Shown here: positions 543 to 8,253 of the stretch, piece after piece
Position numbering within the stretch: the first letter of the stretch is position 1
How the letters are laid out: every line of letters begins with the position of its first letter
Origin: Yersinia frederiksenii ATCC 33641
Lineage (GTDB): Bacteria > Pseudomonadota > Gammaproteobacteria > Enterobacterales > Enterobacteriaceae
Direction of reading: 5' to 3'
Length of the DNA stretch: 64,000 nucleotides
NCBI RefSeq assembly: GCF_000754805.1
Contig: NZ_KN150731.1
Coordinates: 1,568,492-1,632,491 of the forward strand
The notes under the pieces: model-generated
The model's database searches: none
What the model was told of the DNA's origin: nothing
The model's input: the letters and a program-made list of their open reading frames with translations, nothing else
Position numbers and translations under genes: made by a program

Positions 543-737
543 ATTATGTGGATCATTTAAGTCATATTGACGGATAAACAAGCAAAATTTTTTGTCGGTT
601 GATGAATAAATCACCAAGCACAGTTTTCATGATGCACCTTATTATTCTGGCTTAAGTTTGTCTAAAGCTGACCTGACGCAATATTTGATCACGATCACTT
701 CCCCATAATGATATTCACTATTATGAGGGTGGGAACC

Positions 738-1973
738 ATGGACAAATTACTCGACCGCTTTTTCAACTATGTTTCTTTTGATACACAAGCAAAAGCCAAT
801 GTAAAATCCGTGCCGAGCACTGAAGGGCAGCGTAAGCTTGCTCAGGCGTTGCAACATGAGTTACAAACGCTGGGCTTTGATCAGGTTAGCTTGAGTGACC
901 ATGGCTGTGTGATGGCAACATTGCCAGCAAATGTTTCCTGGCCGGTCCCCACCATTGGCTTTATTGCCCATCTTGATACCTCTCCCGACTTTTCGGGGAA
1001 AAATGTAAATCCGCAGATTGTCGAAAACTACCGTGGTGGCGATATTGCCTTGGGTATGGGGGACGAAGTTTTGTCTCCGGTGATGTTCCCGGTACTGCAT
1101 CAGTTACTCGGTCAAACATTAATTACCACCGACGGGAAAACCTTGCTGGGCGCAGATGATAAAGCCGGTATTGCAGAAATTATCACTGCGATGGTGCGTT
1201 TAAAGCATAGCAATGTTCCTCATGGGGATATCCGTATTGCATTTACGCCAGATGAAGAGGTGGGGAAAGGCGCGCGCTTCTTTAATGTGGCAGAATTTGA
1301 TGCTCAGTGGGCTTATACCGTGGATGGCGGTGGTGTTGGTGAGTTAGAGTTTGAAAACTTTAATGCGGCGTCGGTGACCATCAAGATTGTCGGTAATAAT
1401 GTGCACCCCGGCAGTGCTAAAGGAGTGATGGTGAATGCATTATCGCTGGCGACCCGTTTTCATCAGGAGTTGCCTGCAGATGAAGCCCCTGAACGCACCG
1501 AAGGTTATGAGGGTTTTTACCACCTACAAAGCATCAAAGGCACAGTTGAACGGGCGGAAATGCACTATATCGTGCGAGATTTCAACCGAGATGGCTTCGA
1601 AGCACGTAAGAAAAATATGGTGGATATTGCCAAACGGATAGGTAAAGGCTTGCACCGTGACTGCTATATAGAAATCGTTATGGATGACAGTTATTACAAT
1701 ATGCGTGAGCATATTATTAAGTATCCACATATTATCGAACTGGCACAGCAGGCAATGCGAGATTGTGATATTACGCCAATTATGCAACCAATCCGCGGTG
1801 GCACTGATGGCGCACAGCTATCTTTCATGGGGCTACCTTGCCCAAATATCTTTACCGGTGGTTATAATTATCATGGTAAACATGAGTTTATTACGCTGGA
1901 GGGAATGGAGAAAGCGGTTGCGGTTATCATGCGGATTGCTGAACTGACGGCTAAACGAGCCAAAGAGGCATAA
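738..1973 (+). CDS. pepT: Peptidase T, aminotripeptidase
   Basis: Zinc metallopeptidase of the M20 family that removes the N-terminal residue of tripeptides in the cytoplasm. Motifs include the metal-binding [12 protein letters not shown] region, [12 protein letters not shown], the [11 protein letters not shown] glutamate pair and the C-terminal GGTDGAQLS and NYHGKHEF. I chose ATG 738 ([11 protein letters not shown]) because it gives 411 residues, matches the family start and removes a non-conserved ten-residue extension from an upstream ATG at 708. GGGT lies just upstream as a ribosome site. It converges with roxA and shares a terminator with it. Confidence 0.97.
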
Positions 1974-1988
1974 GTTTAGCAGCCCGAT

Positions 1989-2017
1989 AAAAAACGCCCC
2001 GATAAACGGGGCGTTTT
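1989..2017. terminator. Bidirectional terminator between pepT and roxA
   Basis: AAAACGCCCC and GGGGCGTTTT form a perfect ten-pair stem around a 7-base loop. A-rich and T-rich flanks serve both the plus-strand pepT and minus-strand roxA messages. Confidence 0.9.
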
Positions 2018-2036
2018 GTCTTCTAAGCGACAGATA

Positions 2037-3158
2037 TCAGTCGATAAAATACCAATAGCCGCTATTCACCAATGTGGTCAACATCGCCAGGAACGAAGGG
2101 TCTTCCAGTGCTTCACCCAGTTTTGCAGCATCAATACTGTAATGTTGGCATAGTGCATCGGCAGCCTGTAAGTGCGGCGTATCAATCAATTCACCGTTAG
2201 CAAAACACTGCTGACCAATGCGTAGCACGCGCAGACCACTAAGTCGTTGTAATTCTTCACCTTGCTGGAGTAATTCATAAATATCCCCAGCCTGATAAGG
2301 TGGCTCCGGTGGTGCCAGATCCAGCTCATGGCGGGATTGCGAGATAAATTCGCCAAACCAACTTTGGAAATCTTCAGGCTGCTGAACTAAATCCAACATC
2401 ATTGCCCGCAGCTTATCGACTTCTTGTGATTTAATTTCTGCCGGATGTTCTCGCAGTTGTAAGTCAGGGTCGCTGTAGCGGTAGCTACCTAACTCACGTG
2501 AAAGGACATAATCAGCAAAGCCGCTGACTAATTCACGCGCATTAGGTGCGCGGAAACCAACCGAGTAATTTAATGCATTTTCAAGCGCATAGCCTTCATG
2601 AGGAAAGCCCGGTGGAATATAGAGAATATCACCTGGCTCCATCTCTTCATCAATAATGGCGTCGAAAGGCCCCACTTGCAGTAAGTCTGGGTGTGGGCAA
2701 TGCTGCTTCATTTCTGTTTTTTCACCGACTCGCCAGCGGCGACGACCAGTGCCTTGAATAATAAAGACATCATACTGGTCGAAATGTGGGCCAACGCCGC
2801 CACCCGGAACAGAGAAGGAGACCATTAAGTCATCCATGCGCCAATCTGATAGCGGGCGGAATGGGCGCATTAACGCGGCGGCGGGTTCATGCCAATGGTC
2901 AACAGCCTGCACAAGAAGCGACCAGTTGGTTTCACCTAAATGGTCAAAACTCTCGAATGGGCCGTGACTGACTTGCCAACTGCCATCTTCATGACTGACC
3001 AAACGGCTGTCTACTTCATTTTCCATCGCCAAGCCAGCAAGCTCATCAGGCGAAAGTGGGTCAATAAAGTTTTTAAAGCCACGTTTGAGAATAACGGGGC
3101 GTTTCTGCCAATAGCGTTGCAGAAAATCAGGCCAGTCGAGATCGAGTTGATAATCCAT
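2037..3158 (-). CDS. roxA: RoxA, ribosomal protein uL16 arginine 3-hydroxylase (YcfD)
   Basis: JmjC-type 2-oxoglutarate/Fe(II) oxygenase that hydroxylates an arginine of ribosomal protein L16. The iron-binding H-x-D is in PHFDQYDVF and the distal histidine is in PPGFPHEGYAL; the C-terminal winged-helix part is complete. Start MDYQLDLDW at 3158 gives 373 residues, the usual length; the longer upstream start is not conserved. A GGAA-type site precedes it. It follows phoQ on the minus strand with an 83-base gap. Confidence 0.95.
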   Translation of the reverse strand: MDYQLDLDWPDFLQRYWQKRPVILKRGFKNFIDPLSPDELAGLAMENEVDSRLVSHEDGSWQVSHGPFESFDHLGETNWSLLVQAVDHWHEPAAALMRPFRPLSDWRMDDLMVSFSVPGGGVGPHFDQYDVFIIQGTGRRRWRVGEKTEMKQHCPHPDLLQVGPFDAIIDEEMEPGDILYIPPGFPHEGYALENALNYSVGFRAPNARELVSGFADYVLSRELGSYRYSDPDLQLREHPAEIKSQEVDKLRAMMLDLVQQPEDFQSWFGEFISQSRHELDLAPPEPPYQAGDIYELLQQGEELQRLSGLRVLRIGQQCFANGELIDTPHLQAADALCQHYSIDAAKLGEALEDPSFLAMLTTLVNSGYWYFID

Positions 3159-3241
3159 GTTTATTCCAGGAAGGGGGTGAACTTGCCAGTGATTATAACG
3201 GATGCCTGCCAACAGTATCAGGTACTAACCGGCAAATTTTA

Positions 3242-4696
3242 TTAATCAGTGTGATAATCATGTTGCTGGCCAAAGGTCACCATCATTCTTGCTCCCCCCA
3301 AGGGGCTTTCAGTGATGGTTATCTTACCTTGATACTGTTCAATAATTTCTGCTGCAACCGATAATCCAAGACCTTGGCCAGGGCGTAAAGTATCGACTCG
3401 TTGACCCCGTTGGAAAATTAACTGCCGTTTACTTTCAGGGATACCGGGGCCATCATCATCAACAACAATAGTCAGTTGTTTTTCAGAGTGTAGGGCGGTT
3501 ATCTCAACGAATTCCAAGCAGTATTTACAGGCATTCTCCAGCACATTGCCCATCACTTCCATAAAGTCATTTCGCTCACCAAGGAAGGTCACTTCCGGTG
3601 AGATATCGAGTGTGAGTACCACGCCTTTACGCTGATAAACTTTATTCAGCGCGCTACACAAGCTATCTAGTAGGGCAGGGACTGAGTGAATTTCACGGAC
3701 TAAAACATTATGTTCGGAGCGCATACTGGCACGGTGCAAGTAATAGCCAATTTGCTGAGAAATGCGGCTTATCTGCTCCAGCATAATAGGCTCGACCTCC
3801 TCAATGGTGGTCTGCTTACCGGTGCGTAAAGAACGCAATGTTGTTTGCAATACCGCCAATGGAGTTTTGAGGCTATGGGTAAGGTCTGACAGCGTGGTGC
3901 GGTATTTGGTATAACGCTGGCGTTCATTGGTTAGCAATATATTGAGATTACGTACCAAGCTTTGCAATTCACGCGGGGGATTCTCATCTAACTGATCGCG
4001 CTCGCCTTTCTCTAGCTGACTTATCTGGCTGACTAATGCTTTAATCGGCCTTAAACTCCAATAAGCGGCTAGCCACAGTAAGGGTACAACTAACAGTAAG
4101 TTAGCCAGTAAAACATAGCTAAACCAATTCCAAACCAAGTCTGAACGCTGTAATTCTTGTGGGATCGTATCGACGACGACAATGCTGAGTTGTGGCAAGC
4201 GGGAGGTCGCAGGGTAAGTATTGACTGAGACGGAGTGCGTTAATGCGCTACTGTCAGTATCGTCATATTTTTTTAGCTGATCTTGGGCTTTGGGGTTATC
4301 ACCCAGCATCATGCTACTGATATGTGTCCCGGTATCAAGCTCGTAGAAGCCCGGTTTTTGTAGCCAGCTTTTTTCGATATGAGATTCAAGTTCAGGGACA
4401 TGGCGCTGACGCCAGAGAATATTGCCATCTTTATCGTAAATCAGAACCAGTGTGGGAATATTCAGTTCAAGTTCGGGAGGTACCGAGATGCTGAGGCGGT
4501 TGTCATGCCACTGCGCCAGACTGAAAAATAAATTACTTTCACCTCGATGTGCGCTGAAAGTATTTTTATCAAAACTGACAATATAGCCGACTACGGCAAC
4601 CATGCCATAGGATAGCGACAGCGCTAAGATGACACCTGCTGTCGCCATAAGAAAGCGAGCACGAAGGGAGAACGGTTTACTATTTTTCCTGAGCAT
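3242..4696 (-). CDS. phoQ: PhoQ, sensor histidine kinase for Mg2+, pH and cationic peptides
   Basis: Inner-membrane sensor that phosphorylates PhoP. Residues about 15-40 and 190-215 are the two membrane helices flanking a periplasmic PAS-like domain. HAMP follows, then the H-box [11 protein letters not shown] with the phospho-accepting His, N-box [10 protein letters not shown] and ATP motifs DDDGPGIPE and GQGLGLS. The divalent-cation patch facing the membrane reads YDDTDSS, with fewer acidic residues than the E. coli stretch. It starts 5 bases after phoP, so the two are cotranslated. Full length at 484 residues. Confidence 0.97.
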
Positions 4697-4701
4697 GTTG
4701 T

Positions 4702-5373
4702 CTAGTTGGCGTCAAAACGGTATCCCTGACCACGGATGGTCGTAATCACTTCACCTTCATGTTCTGCCTGCAGTTTTTTACGCAAGCGGCCCATTAGGAC
4801 ATCGATAGTGTGGCTTTCACGCAGTTCTGCATCAGGATAGAGTTGCAGCATTAATGTATCTTTACTGACCACTTTGCCAGCATTACGAATAAGGGTTTCA
4901 ATAATGGTGTATTCGAAAGCCGTCAGTTTGATTTGCTGCTGATTGACACTCAACTCTCGTCGCGAGAGGTCAATCTGGAATGGTGGAAAATCAATGACTT
5001 GGGATGCCAGCCCGATATTGCGTCGCATCAATGCCTGTATCCGCGCAATGACTTCTTCCAGATGAAAAGGCTTGGTCACATAATCATCGGCACCTGCTTC
5101 CAATACAGCGACTTTATCTTGCCAACTTTCTCGCGCTGTCAGCACCAGAATAGGCAAATTAGTCTGATGACTACGCCAGCGACGGATAAGGCTCAAACCA
5201 TCTTCACCCGGTAAGCCAAGATCGATAATTGCGATATCTGGAGCATGTTCTTGTAAGAAATAGTCTGCCTCTTTGGCATCTTCCGCTGCATCAACTTGAT
5301 GGCCCATCTCGCGCATTTGCACGGTAAGGTGGTGACGCAACAAAGCATTATCTTCGACAACCAGAACCCGCAT
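4702..5373 (-). CDS. phoP: PhoP, OmpR-family response regulator
   Basis: DNA-binding partner of PhoQ. The receiver domain (residues 1-115) has the acidic pair in VEDNALL, phospho-acceptor Asp in [11 protein letters not shown] and Lys in VTKPFH. The winged helix (about 125-223) ends in the typical [12 protein letters not shown]. Length 223 matches the family. GAGGAA lies upstream of the start. It lies 70 bases downstream of an outer-membrane protein gene on the same strand, and no clear PhoP box was found in that gap, so it may depend partly on the PhoP-type promoter further upstream. Confidence 0.98.
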
Positions 5374-5398
5374 ACCACATTCCTCGATAATCGTTAAC

Positions 5399-5419
5399 CG
5401 GGTAATCTAATATTACCCG
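5399..5419 (-). other. Hairpin between the barrel gene and phoP
   Basis: CGGGTAA and TTACCCG form a 7-pair stem with a 7-base loop. In the direction of phoP it is not followed by a T run, so it looks more like a processing or partial-attenuation element than a full terminator. Confidence 0.45.
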
Positions 5420-5443
5420 ACAAGTAAAAATTAAAACAGTTAC

Positions 5444-6067
5444 TTAGAAGTTGTAACGTAAACCGACTTGCATCGCCTGATCGCTGACTTTCCAGTTATG
5501 GTAGGTATAGCCGACTTCTGCAGCAAGGTTTTGTGTCAATGCATAATCAGTCATAACTCGCGCTTCATGGAAGGCACGACCATCATAGTTTGCTAAACGG
5601 TAAGCAACGTCCAGGCCAACATCTTGGGACAACTTGCTTTTGATACCGACTTCGCCGGTAGCACTGTTATAAGTATTGGTTTTTTTACCGTCTTTGCTGG
5701 CATCAAATACCATGGCGTGGCGACTACCACCAACTAAGGTATAAAAATCAATATTAGGTGAGAAAGCAAAATGGTAGCCCAGCCCAAGTACGGCTTCTGC
5801 TAAGCCACGGTCACTATTGGCAATACTATTTATACGGCCATCAATAAACAGGTCATTATCAAAACCATAACCACCGTTAAGATAAATTCCACCCATATCT
5901 CGTTTACCGACATGGCTGTAATTATTTTGGTCAAATTGCTTATCGAAACGAGCATTATTGCTGATGGAACCGTATTGTAAACCACCAGCAACATAGGTGT
6001 AATCAGCCGCCATGGTGGCATTACAAGTCCCAAGCAAGGCGAAGGTGAGTAGTGTTTGCTTTAACAT
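5444..6067 (-). CDS. Outer-membrane beta-barrel protein, function unknown, PhoP box upstream
   Basis: A 207-residue protein with a clear signal peptide (cleavage near MAADYTY). The mature chain is made of alternating amphipathic strands rich in Tyr and Gly and ends in GLRYNF, the C-terminal aromatic signature for outer-membrane insertion. Its size suits an 8-10-strand barrel. I do not recognise a named family. It lies between purB and phoP, a place empty in E. coli. A perfect PhoP box with a correctly spaced -10 element precedes it, so I infer that it belongs to the PhoP regulon and probably acts in envelope remodelling or defence. It might also be read into phoPQ. Confidence 0.85.
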   Translation of the reverse strand: MLKQTLLTFALLGTCNATMAADYTYVAGGLQYGSISNNARFDKQFDQNNYSHVGKRDMGGIYLNGGYGFDNDLFIDGRINSIANSDRGLAEAVLGLGYHFAFSPNIDFYTLVGGSRHAMVFDASKDGKKTNTYNSATGEVGIKSKLSQDVGLDVAYRLANYDGRAFHEARVMTDYALTQNLAAEVGYTYHNWKVSDQAMQVGLRYNF

Positions 6068-6114
6068 AATGATAATAGCTCCTGCGGTTAGAAAGTCCTT
6101 TTGACATCAAGCGT

Positions 6115-6149
6115 ATTATCAATGACAACGGCTAAACCGGGGCTAAACA
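6115..6149 (-). promoter_or_regulatory. PhoP-activated promoter of the barrel gene
   Basis: On the minus strand TGTTTA-GCCCC-GGTTTA (6133-6149) is an exact direct-repeat PhoP box. Exactly 12 bases later comes the -10 hexamer GATAAT (6115-6120), the arrangement of classic PhoP-activated promoters. Transcription would begin near 6108, giving a leader of about 40 bases. Confidence 0.85.
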
Positions 6150-6186
6150 GGGGGCGAGCACAAAGGAATAAGAAAAGAGAGAGGAT

Positions 6187-6216
6187 ATACAGGTGGCATT
6201 AATCCACCACCTGTAT
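6187..6216 (-). terminator. purB terminator
   Basis: ATACAGGTGG and CCACCTGTAT make a ten-pair stem followed on the minus strand by a pyrimidine-rich T tract. It ends the purB message before the PhoP promoter. Confidence 0.75.
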
Positions 6217-6230
6217 TGATGGTCATAACA

Positions 6231-8253
<2,023 letters not shown>

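Follow-up and report, generated by a model that had tools for sequence, protein, structure and literature searches.

An outer-membrane barrel gene interposed between a putative PhoP-autoregulated promoter and phoPQ in Yersinia frederiksenii

In Yersinia frederiksenii ATCC 33641 an outer-membrane beta-barrel gene, phoP, phoQ and a JmjC gene that we take to be roxA very probably form a PhoP-autoregulated operon, barrel-phoP-phoQ-(roxA), which is read from the promoter of the barrel gene and has the barrel as an interposed cistron that can be lost. PhoP binding, activation and read-through have been demonstrated at the corresponding locus of Yersinia pestis (PMC2650801), and we infer the same for Y. 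frederiksenii from the gene order, the PhoP box, the spacer and the −10 hexamer. Across the genomes compared here the promoter is conserved, is retained after loss of the barrel and is of a type shared between genera. The layout in Hafnia, the loss of the barrel with a kept promoter in a few Yersinia and a promoter older than the layout appear to be new; as far as the accessible parts of the open-licence literature go, no earlier report of the Hafnia layout, the natural deletions or the two-box promoter was found, and these may be in print elsewhere.

Locus organisation and the Y. pestis counterpart

All features described here lie on the minus strand of the window, the 64,000-nucleotide stretch of contig NZ_KN150731.1 that was analysed. 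The putative PhoP box, TGTTTA-GCCCC-GGTTTA (6133–6149), is a direct repeat with half-sites TGTTTA (6149–6144) and GGTTTA (6138–6133) 11 bp apart. Twelve bases after the box (GCCGTTGTCATT) the sequence reads GATAAT, a −10 hexamer (6115–6120) from whose position a start site is predicted at ~6108, and AGGAG (6079–6083) is the likely ribosome-binding site of the barrel gene, a 207-codon open reading frame with an ATG start (5444–6067) whose product matches Pfam family PF13505. The 70-bp gap between the barrel gene and phoP (5374–5443) holds a hairpin (5397–5421; 10 pairs including G-U, a loop of 5 and no T run) that ends 23 nt before phoP. The open reading frames and family scans then identify phoP, the response regulator (4702–5373; 223 aa), phoQ, the sensor kinase (3242–4696; 484 aa, PhoQ_Sensor 299 bits), and the roxA-like JmjC gene as the last cistron (2037–3158; its start was picked by comparison with the Hafnia-type open reading frame), which by position is probably the counterpart of YPO1632 of Y. 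pestis. The upstream neighbour (6231–7601), presumably purB from its protein and the gene order, has its stop at 6231 and lies outside the operon. The initial annotation had described a box, 12 bases and GATAAT upstream of a barrel gene placed between purB and phoP, and its coordinates and motif proved exact; the 70-base gap with a hairpin lacking a T run was also as described, and a terminator consensus scan of 5300–6300 gave 0 terminators.

The barrel gene is taken as the counterpart of y1795 (KIM) or YPO1635 (CO92) on the basis of position, length and context, YPO1635 being taken from its position as the CO92 name of y1795. In the parts of Perez et al. 2009 drawn on here (PMC2650801), chromatin immunoprecipitation, footprinting, primer extension, RT-PCR and box mutations were used in Y. 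pestis; the promoter of y1795, a 207-aa gene located 5′ of phoP and predicted to encode an outer-membrane protein and/or lipoprotein, binds PhoP, shows a PhoP footprint and is activated by PhoP, and mutation of the box abolishes PhoP-dependent expression. The phoP-dependent y1795 transcript extends into phoP, with read-through detected by RT-PCR, and PhoP levels follow Mg2+; directly before phoP those parts of the paper report no identified PhoP box and no in vivo PhoP binding. Consistent with this, y1795 was 7.2- to 57.5-fold higher in the wild type than in a phoP mutant under four conditions (PMC4635514 Table 1, the part of that source consulted), and a review describes the y1795 protein as a putative small barrel of the outer membrane whose level rises strongly at 37 °C (PMC3521224).

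The two loci agree in gene order and strand; each has, immediately 5′ of phoP, a gene for a predicted outer-membrane protein of 207 aa, and in each a PhoP box stands ahead of the barrel with none immediately ahead of phoP (the window has a box and −10 before the barrel, and the highest score within the last 110 nt before phoP is 8/12). They differ only in species, binding and transcription having been measured in Y. pestis and the window being known from its sequence. The proposal of the initial annotation that PhoP autoregulation runs through a barrel gene leading phoPQ had thus already been published for Y. pestis in 2009 (PMC2650801), where it is experimental; in Y. frederiksenii it is carried by conservation. 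The barrel promoter would be the PhoP-activated entry to phoPQ but is probably not the only entry, because the passages of PMC4821237 that follow a 2013 paper describe two units in Y. pestis, YPO1635-phoPQ-YPO1632 and a separate phoPQ-YPO1632 that starts after the barrel.

By the preferred reading phosphorylated PhoP would bind the direct repeat at 6133–6149 and recruit RNA polymerase to the −10 at 6115–6120, and the transcript would pass the barrel gene and a non-terminating hairpin into phoP and phoQ. The barrel would be the first output of the system, with phoPQ as feedback. The promoter itself would be an inherited phoP promoter with the barrel cistron in between, the loss of which would leave ordinary phoP autoregulation.

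Promoter conservation and natural loss of the barrel

The exact box matches once in the 4.94 Mb genome and a reversed control is as frequent (1 match), so the box alone proves little. The box followed by N12 and NATAAT gave two exact matches and one with a single mismatch in the same genome, and 0 for the control; here and in the box scores given below, either half-site could open with T or G. The box scans before the barrel and before phoP in the genus genomes and the barrel-less genomes fixed the spacer at 12, so that they test this spacing and are blind to others. In all 25 genomes of the genus the box (10–12 of 12), the 12-bp spacer and a −10 at 5 of 6 are kept: the box scores 12/12 in 21 genomes and 10–11/12 in the other four with the same spacer, and the −10 at this spacing is GATAAT in 24 and AATAAT in one. 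A chance origin of the element is rejected on the two exact matches against none in the control and on this conservation, and the latter is the decisive evidence that the element is real.

The only other exact box-N12-NATAAT in the genome (locus L087, 1501–1535; G000:C1:2373497-2373531) is oriented divergently from a gene for a LacI-type regulator; within the locus, no open reading frame of at least 70 aa begins downstream of the element on the strand that it occupies. In two genomes, G005 (L045) and G006 (L051), the barrel/phoP promoter has three rather than two half-sites, spaced by 11 bp, and so forms a longer PhoP box array, with an imperfect first half-site in G006.

As the initial annotation had noted, the barrel-phoP gap contains no clear PhoP box. 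Sites in the last 110 nt before phoP score 7–10/12 over the 25 genus genomes, with a single 10 in G021, and a PhoP box hidden in the gap is rejected. A scan of 5374–5443 found no sigma-70 promoter directly before phoP, and over both strands of 5300–6300 the number of promoter-like sites was 3 against 2.2 expected. The phoP gene was present in all 25 genus genomes searched; in G021 (L049), alone among the 25, it starts with ATT and not ATG, without an in-frame start just upstream, which reflects either a rare start or an assembly error.

A full-length barrel match was found in 22 of the 25 genus genomes (one with a run of N inside). Of the remaining three, G005 and G016 have lost the gene, and the box, −10 and leader run straight into what appear to be the last barrel codons and then phoP, so that the box stands at −179 and −178 before phoP, respectively. 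In G003 the gene has decayed to a 39-residue matching stretch beside phoP, with the box at −380. All three genomes nevertheless retain a 12/12 box with GATAAT, 178–380 bp before phoP. A promoter serving only the barrel would be expected to decay with it, and its retention therefore suggests that the promoter is selected as a phoP promoter. The three genomes constitute a natural deletion experiment, in which the output gene vanishes from the head of the regulator's own operon and the autoregulatory promoter stays. Since species with and without the barrel have the same promoter, the role of a fused output gene in PhoP/PhoQ feedback is directly testable.

The barrel has been lost two or three times in the genus. 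Both trees count three changes, with the barrel-bearing G020 placed beside G005, but a single G005 + G016 clade is not rejected (p-AU 0.094 and 0.179) and the deletion junctions of these two genomes look alike.

The intercistronic hairpin has moderate support by covariation. Over the 25 genus genomes 95.5% of the stem cells are paired (slid controls 14–50%) and three pairs are changed on both sides; among 500 shuffles the covariation score was reached by none, the paired cells by one, the two-sided changed pairs by 82 and the pair types by 352. The four Hafnia-type genomes each have a 9- to 10-pair stem of unrelated sequence at the same place. After loss of the barrel the stem is slightly changed, with a mismatch in G016, a G-U pair in G005 and nine pairs kept in G003. 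A structured RNA by the energy criterion is rejected, the fold energy of the gap being ordinary (z −0.03), and Rfam gave 0 matches at the gathering score over 3000–8000. Our guess is that the hairpin adjusts how much barrel is made relative to the regulator.

The barrel protein

The initial annotation recognised no family for the barrel, a view that has to be amended: the window protein passes the broad Pfam family PF13505 (OMP_b-brl) with 40.7 bits against a gathering cut-off of 28.7. All 24 members scanned match this family at E 0.01 or better (best 2.1e-18), with an end of the form ...LRYNF, although the family is silent on function. No NCBIfam model reached its cut-off with the window barrel, the AcfA family scoring 18.7 against 100 bits and TIGR04565 18.9 against 60.

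Structure prediction and the homologue search, both proposed in the initial annotation, indicate a 10-strand barrel with relatives in Yersinia and Hafnia. The best AlphaFold2 model of each of two runs has 10 strands (mean pLDDT 81.3 and 87.9); the five models of the first run spread widely (81 to 28) and those of the second little (88 to 80). Among the fold matches listed the similarities are generic (Ail, OmpA, NspA and omptins, best TM by query ~0.6), and a viral fold search returned only generic small barrels among its listed matches. A search of PDB sequences with a profile of 22 sequences gave one match at E up to 1, AcrIF9. The Pfam and NCBIfam scans gave no family-level match to the Ail/OmpX or omptin barrels; the Foldseek TM by query was 0.42–0.45 for Ail and OmpX and 0.46–0.57 for the omptins, with rmsd of 5–12. 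The lipoprotein alternative of 2009 is unlikely, Cys15 being present in 17 of 20 barrels and absent from three.

The barrel is under purifying selection, with a median dN/dS of 0.067 compared with 0.014 for phoP (20 sequences each). Twenty of 22 barrels entered this comparison, which excludes L006 (insertion) and L022 (N); only pairs with a defined dS above 0.05 were used, 145 of 190 for the barrel and 159 of 190 for phoP. Alignment A2 was made without L022 and without the Hafnia-type sequences L069 and L070, and alignment A4 comprised 21 sequences.

In gene order the locus resembles oprH-phoP-phoQ of Pseudomonas aeruginosa, where an outer-membrane protein gene likewise precedes phoPQ in an operon. 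The oprH gene is PhoP-activated, and OprH is a basic protein of 8 strands. The barrel gene stands, like oprH, at the head of phoPQ behind a PhoP box, activation having been shown in Y. pestis, and the barrel may be regarded as a positional analogue of OprH, a parallel that Perez et al. had already drawn (PMC2650801). Membership of the OprH family is rejected on sequence and strand number: the barrel has no sequence match to the OprH chains in PDB and has 10 predicted strands against 8. The best 50 of 1057 and the best 50 of 1018 fold matches did not include OprH. The mature window barrel has a pI of 5.9 and a net charge of ~−2.8, and with a pI of 5.1 to 9.0 among 20 barrels the set is not consistently basic, unlike OprH. 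Judged from its regulation, the barrel most likely has its role in the outer membrane when Mg2+ is low or cationic peptides impose stress.

Distribution beyond Yersinia and alternative readings

A scan of named genomes with two peptide patterns gave 13 loci, 12 titled Yersinia and one from Hafnia alvei (L067), whose barrel is 52% identical over residues 1–207 and is followed by phoP and phoQ. In the family search the barrel occurs in 9 of 392 genomes and 2 of 154 genera, with five of the genomes in the genus Yersinia and four in genus g150; G005 was included in this sample and gave no barrel match. All four g150 genomes carry the barrel with phoP directly after it and have a box (11/12), N12 and GATACT before the barrel, the same letters as in L067. 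Genus g150 is probably Hafnia, given the near-identity of its DNA with L067. In one g150 genome (G173; L105) the order is barrel-phoP-phoQ-JmjC gene and no purB was found in the 9.3 kb read upstream; the unit stays together there while its upstream neighbour differs from that in Yersinia. At 3717–7726 of L105, where Yersinia has purB, lie genes for a GMC-type oxidoreductase and for one cytochrome c-like protein (functions assigned by eye).

With barrel-phoP in Hafnia alvei and in all four g150 genomes, the statement of 2009 that y1795 orthologues are found in Yersinia only, as given in the consulted parts of that paper (PMC2650801), no longer holds; the arrangement is not confined to Yersinia.

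A second box is located exactly 32 bp upstream of the first in some of these promoters. G001, G009 and G012, all of Y. ruckeri/nurmii type, match it at 9/10 letters, the four Hafnia-type genomes at 10/10 and the barrel-less G064 at 9/10; none of 2000 shuffles reached any of these scores. Among the 22 other genus genomes G021 scores 6 (38 of 2000 shuffles) and the rest 4 or less. When one mismatch is tolerated, the two-box pattern is present in 16 of 392 family genomes and 7 of 154 genera, once in each genome, and the control gave 0. All 16 matches are upstream of phoP; as the pattern was written after seeing eight promoters (G001, G009, G012, the four Hafnia-type genomes and G064), to which seven of the 16 belong, the other nine are the independent test, all of them upstream of phoP and one (G209) from the same genus as G064. 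From the −10 to the phoP ATG the distance is 26–204 nt in 10 of the 16, none of which is among the nine barrel carriers of the family search, and 733–739 nt, with the barrel in between, in the other six.

Ten barrel-less genomes with phoP were examined, and in five (G028, G035, G067, G025 and G064) box-N12-(−10) precedes phoP with 9–12/12 for the box and 4–5/6 for the −10; G033 is weaker (10 and 4), and by the same criterion no such element was found before phoP in G065, G026, G062 and G060. The promoter of G064 aligns with that of G001 (Y. nurmii type) at z 12.7, the segments being aligned on the box, which contributes to z, and with that of G009 at z 10.3 (0 of 300 shuffles each); with the five other Yersinia of the seven tested the alignment is weak (z 1.7 to 4.1). 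The promoter thus appears from sequence comparison to be older than the barrel-phoP layout. With every one of the 16 two-box matches placed ahead of phoP, and 10 at no more than 204 nt from it, the two-box form would be a wider phoP promoter, and the barrel an interposed, losable cistron that in these genera sits within what is an ordinary leader of phoP elsewhere.

Under one alternative, PhoP would act on the barrel gene alone, its transcript being stopped or strongly attenuated at the hairpin, and phoPQ would be expressed mainly from a separate promoter close to, or within, the end of the barrel gene. The conservation of the hairpin before phoP with some covariation, and the different stem at the same place in all four Hafnia-type genomes, would fit, as would the phoPQ-YPO1632 unit separate from YPO1635 described in the relevant part of PMC4821237; against this, the stem has no T run, no terminator was called, the gap folds with ordinary energy and the box is kept in three genomes without the barrel. 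The consulted parts of PMC2650801 moreover report RT-PCR read-through and PhoP levels that track Mg2+ in Y. pestis, and we regard such an arrangement as highly doubtful. It is also unlikely that the barrel belongs to a signalling loop, feeding back on the system by a change in the divalent cations or peptides that surround PhoQ. The possibility was raised by Perez et al. from the co-transcription (PMC2650801), and it accords with the barrel heading the operon in 22 of the 25 genomes of the Yersinia genus and in all four of Hafnia type and with the strong PhoP dependence tabulated for Y. pestis (PMC4635514). However, the same paper reports normal mgtA regulation where the Salmonella phoPQ was swapped for Y. 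pestis phoPQ without y1795 (PMC2650801), and the three genus genomes lacking a full-length barrel keep phoP.

Where the barrel came from is a separate question. The passage of PMC2650801 on its origin proposes entry into Yersinia after the split from Serratia, and with a separate transfer into Hafnia this is a serious contender, if somewhat short of an even chance. The patchy distribution and the barrel-less genera with the same promoter type close before phoP speak for it. Against it, the two-box promoter and the order barrel-phoP are common to genomes of the Hafnia type and of the Y. ruckeri/nurmii type, losses are seen directly inside Yersinia, so that loss is possible, and barrel identities to the window (52–53% in Hafnia types and 60–61% in Y. 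ruckeri/nurmii types) fall in the same order as those of PhoP (87% and 93–96%; 15 barrel-less or Hafnia-type genomes were queried, and 14 gave phoP). Tentatively, and with rather less weight, an old two-box phoP autoregulatory promoter, now in seven genera, might have received the interposed barrel and hairpin in Yersinia/Hafnia; the barrel would then predate their split and would have been deleted repeatedly, returning the unchanged promoter to phoP, and the hairpin would set the barrel/regulator ratio, with weaker constraint after loss.

More distant relatives of the barrel were met in the order search, in which 15 of 394 genomes match: two of the Yersinia genus, 11 of g187 (possibly Aeromonas) with weak relatives, G715 with one weak relative, and G056 with several matches. 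In L090, the one g187 locus read, phoP is not a neighbour of the relative. No close phoP was found in G056, a 1.7 Mb genome of another family, the best having 36% identity. At 603–3169 of its locus L104 (G056:C1:1333500-1343500) a barrel relative of 258 aa and 37% identity lies directly after purB and is followed by a GTPase gene, and further barrel matches occur elsewhere in this genome.
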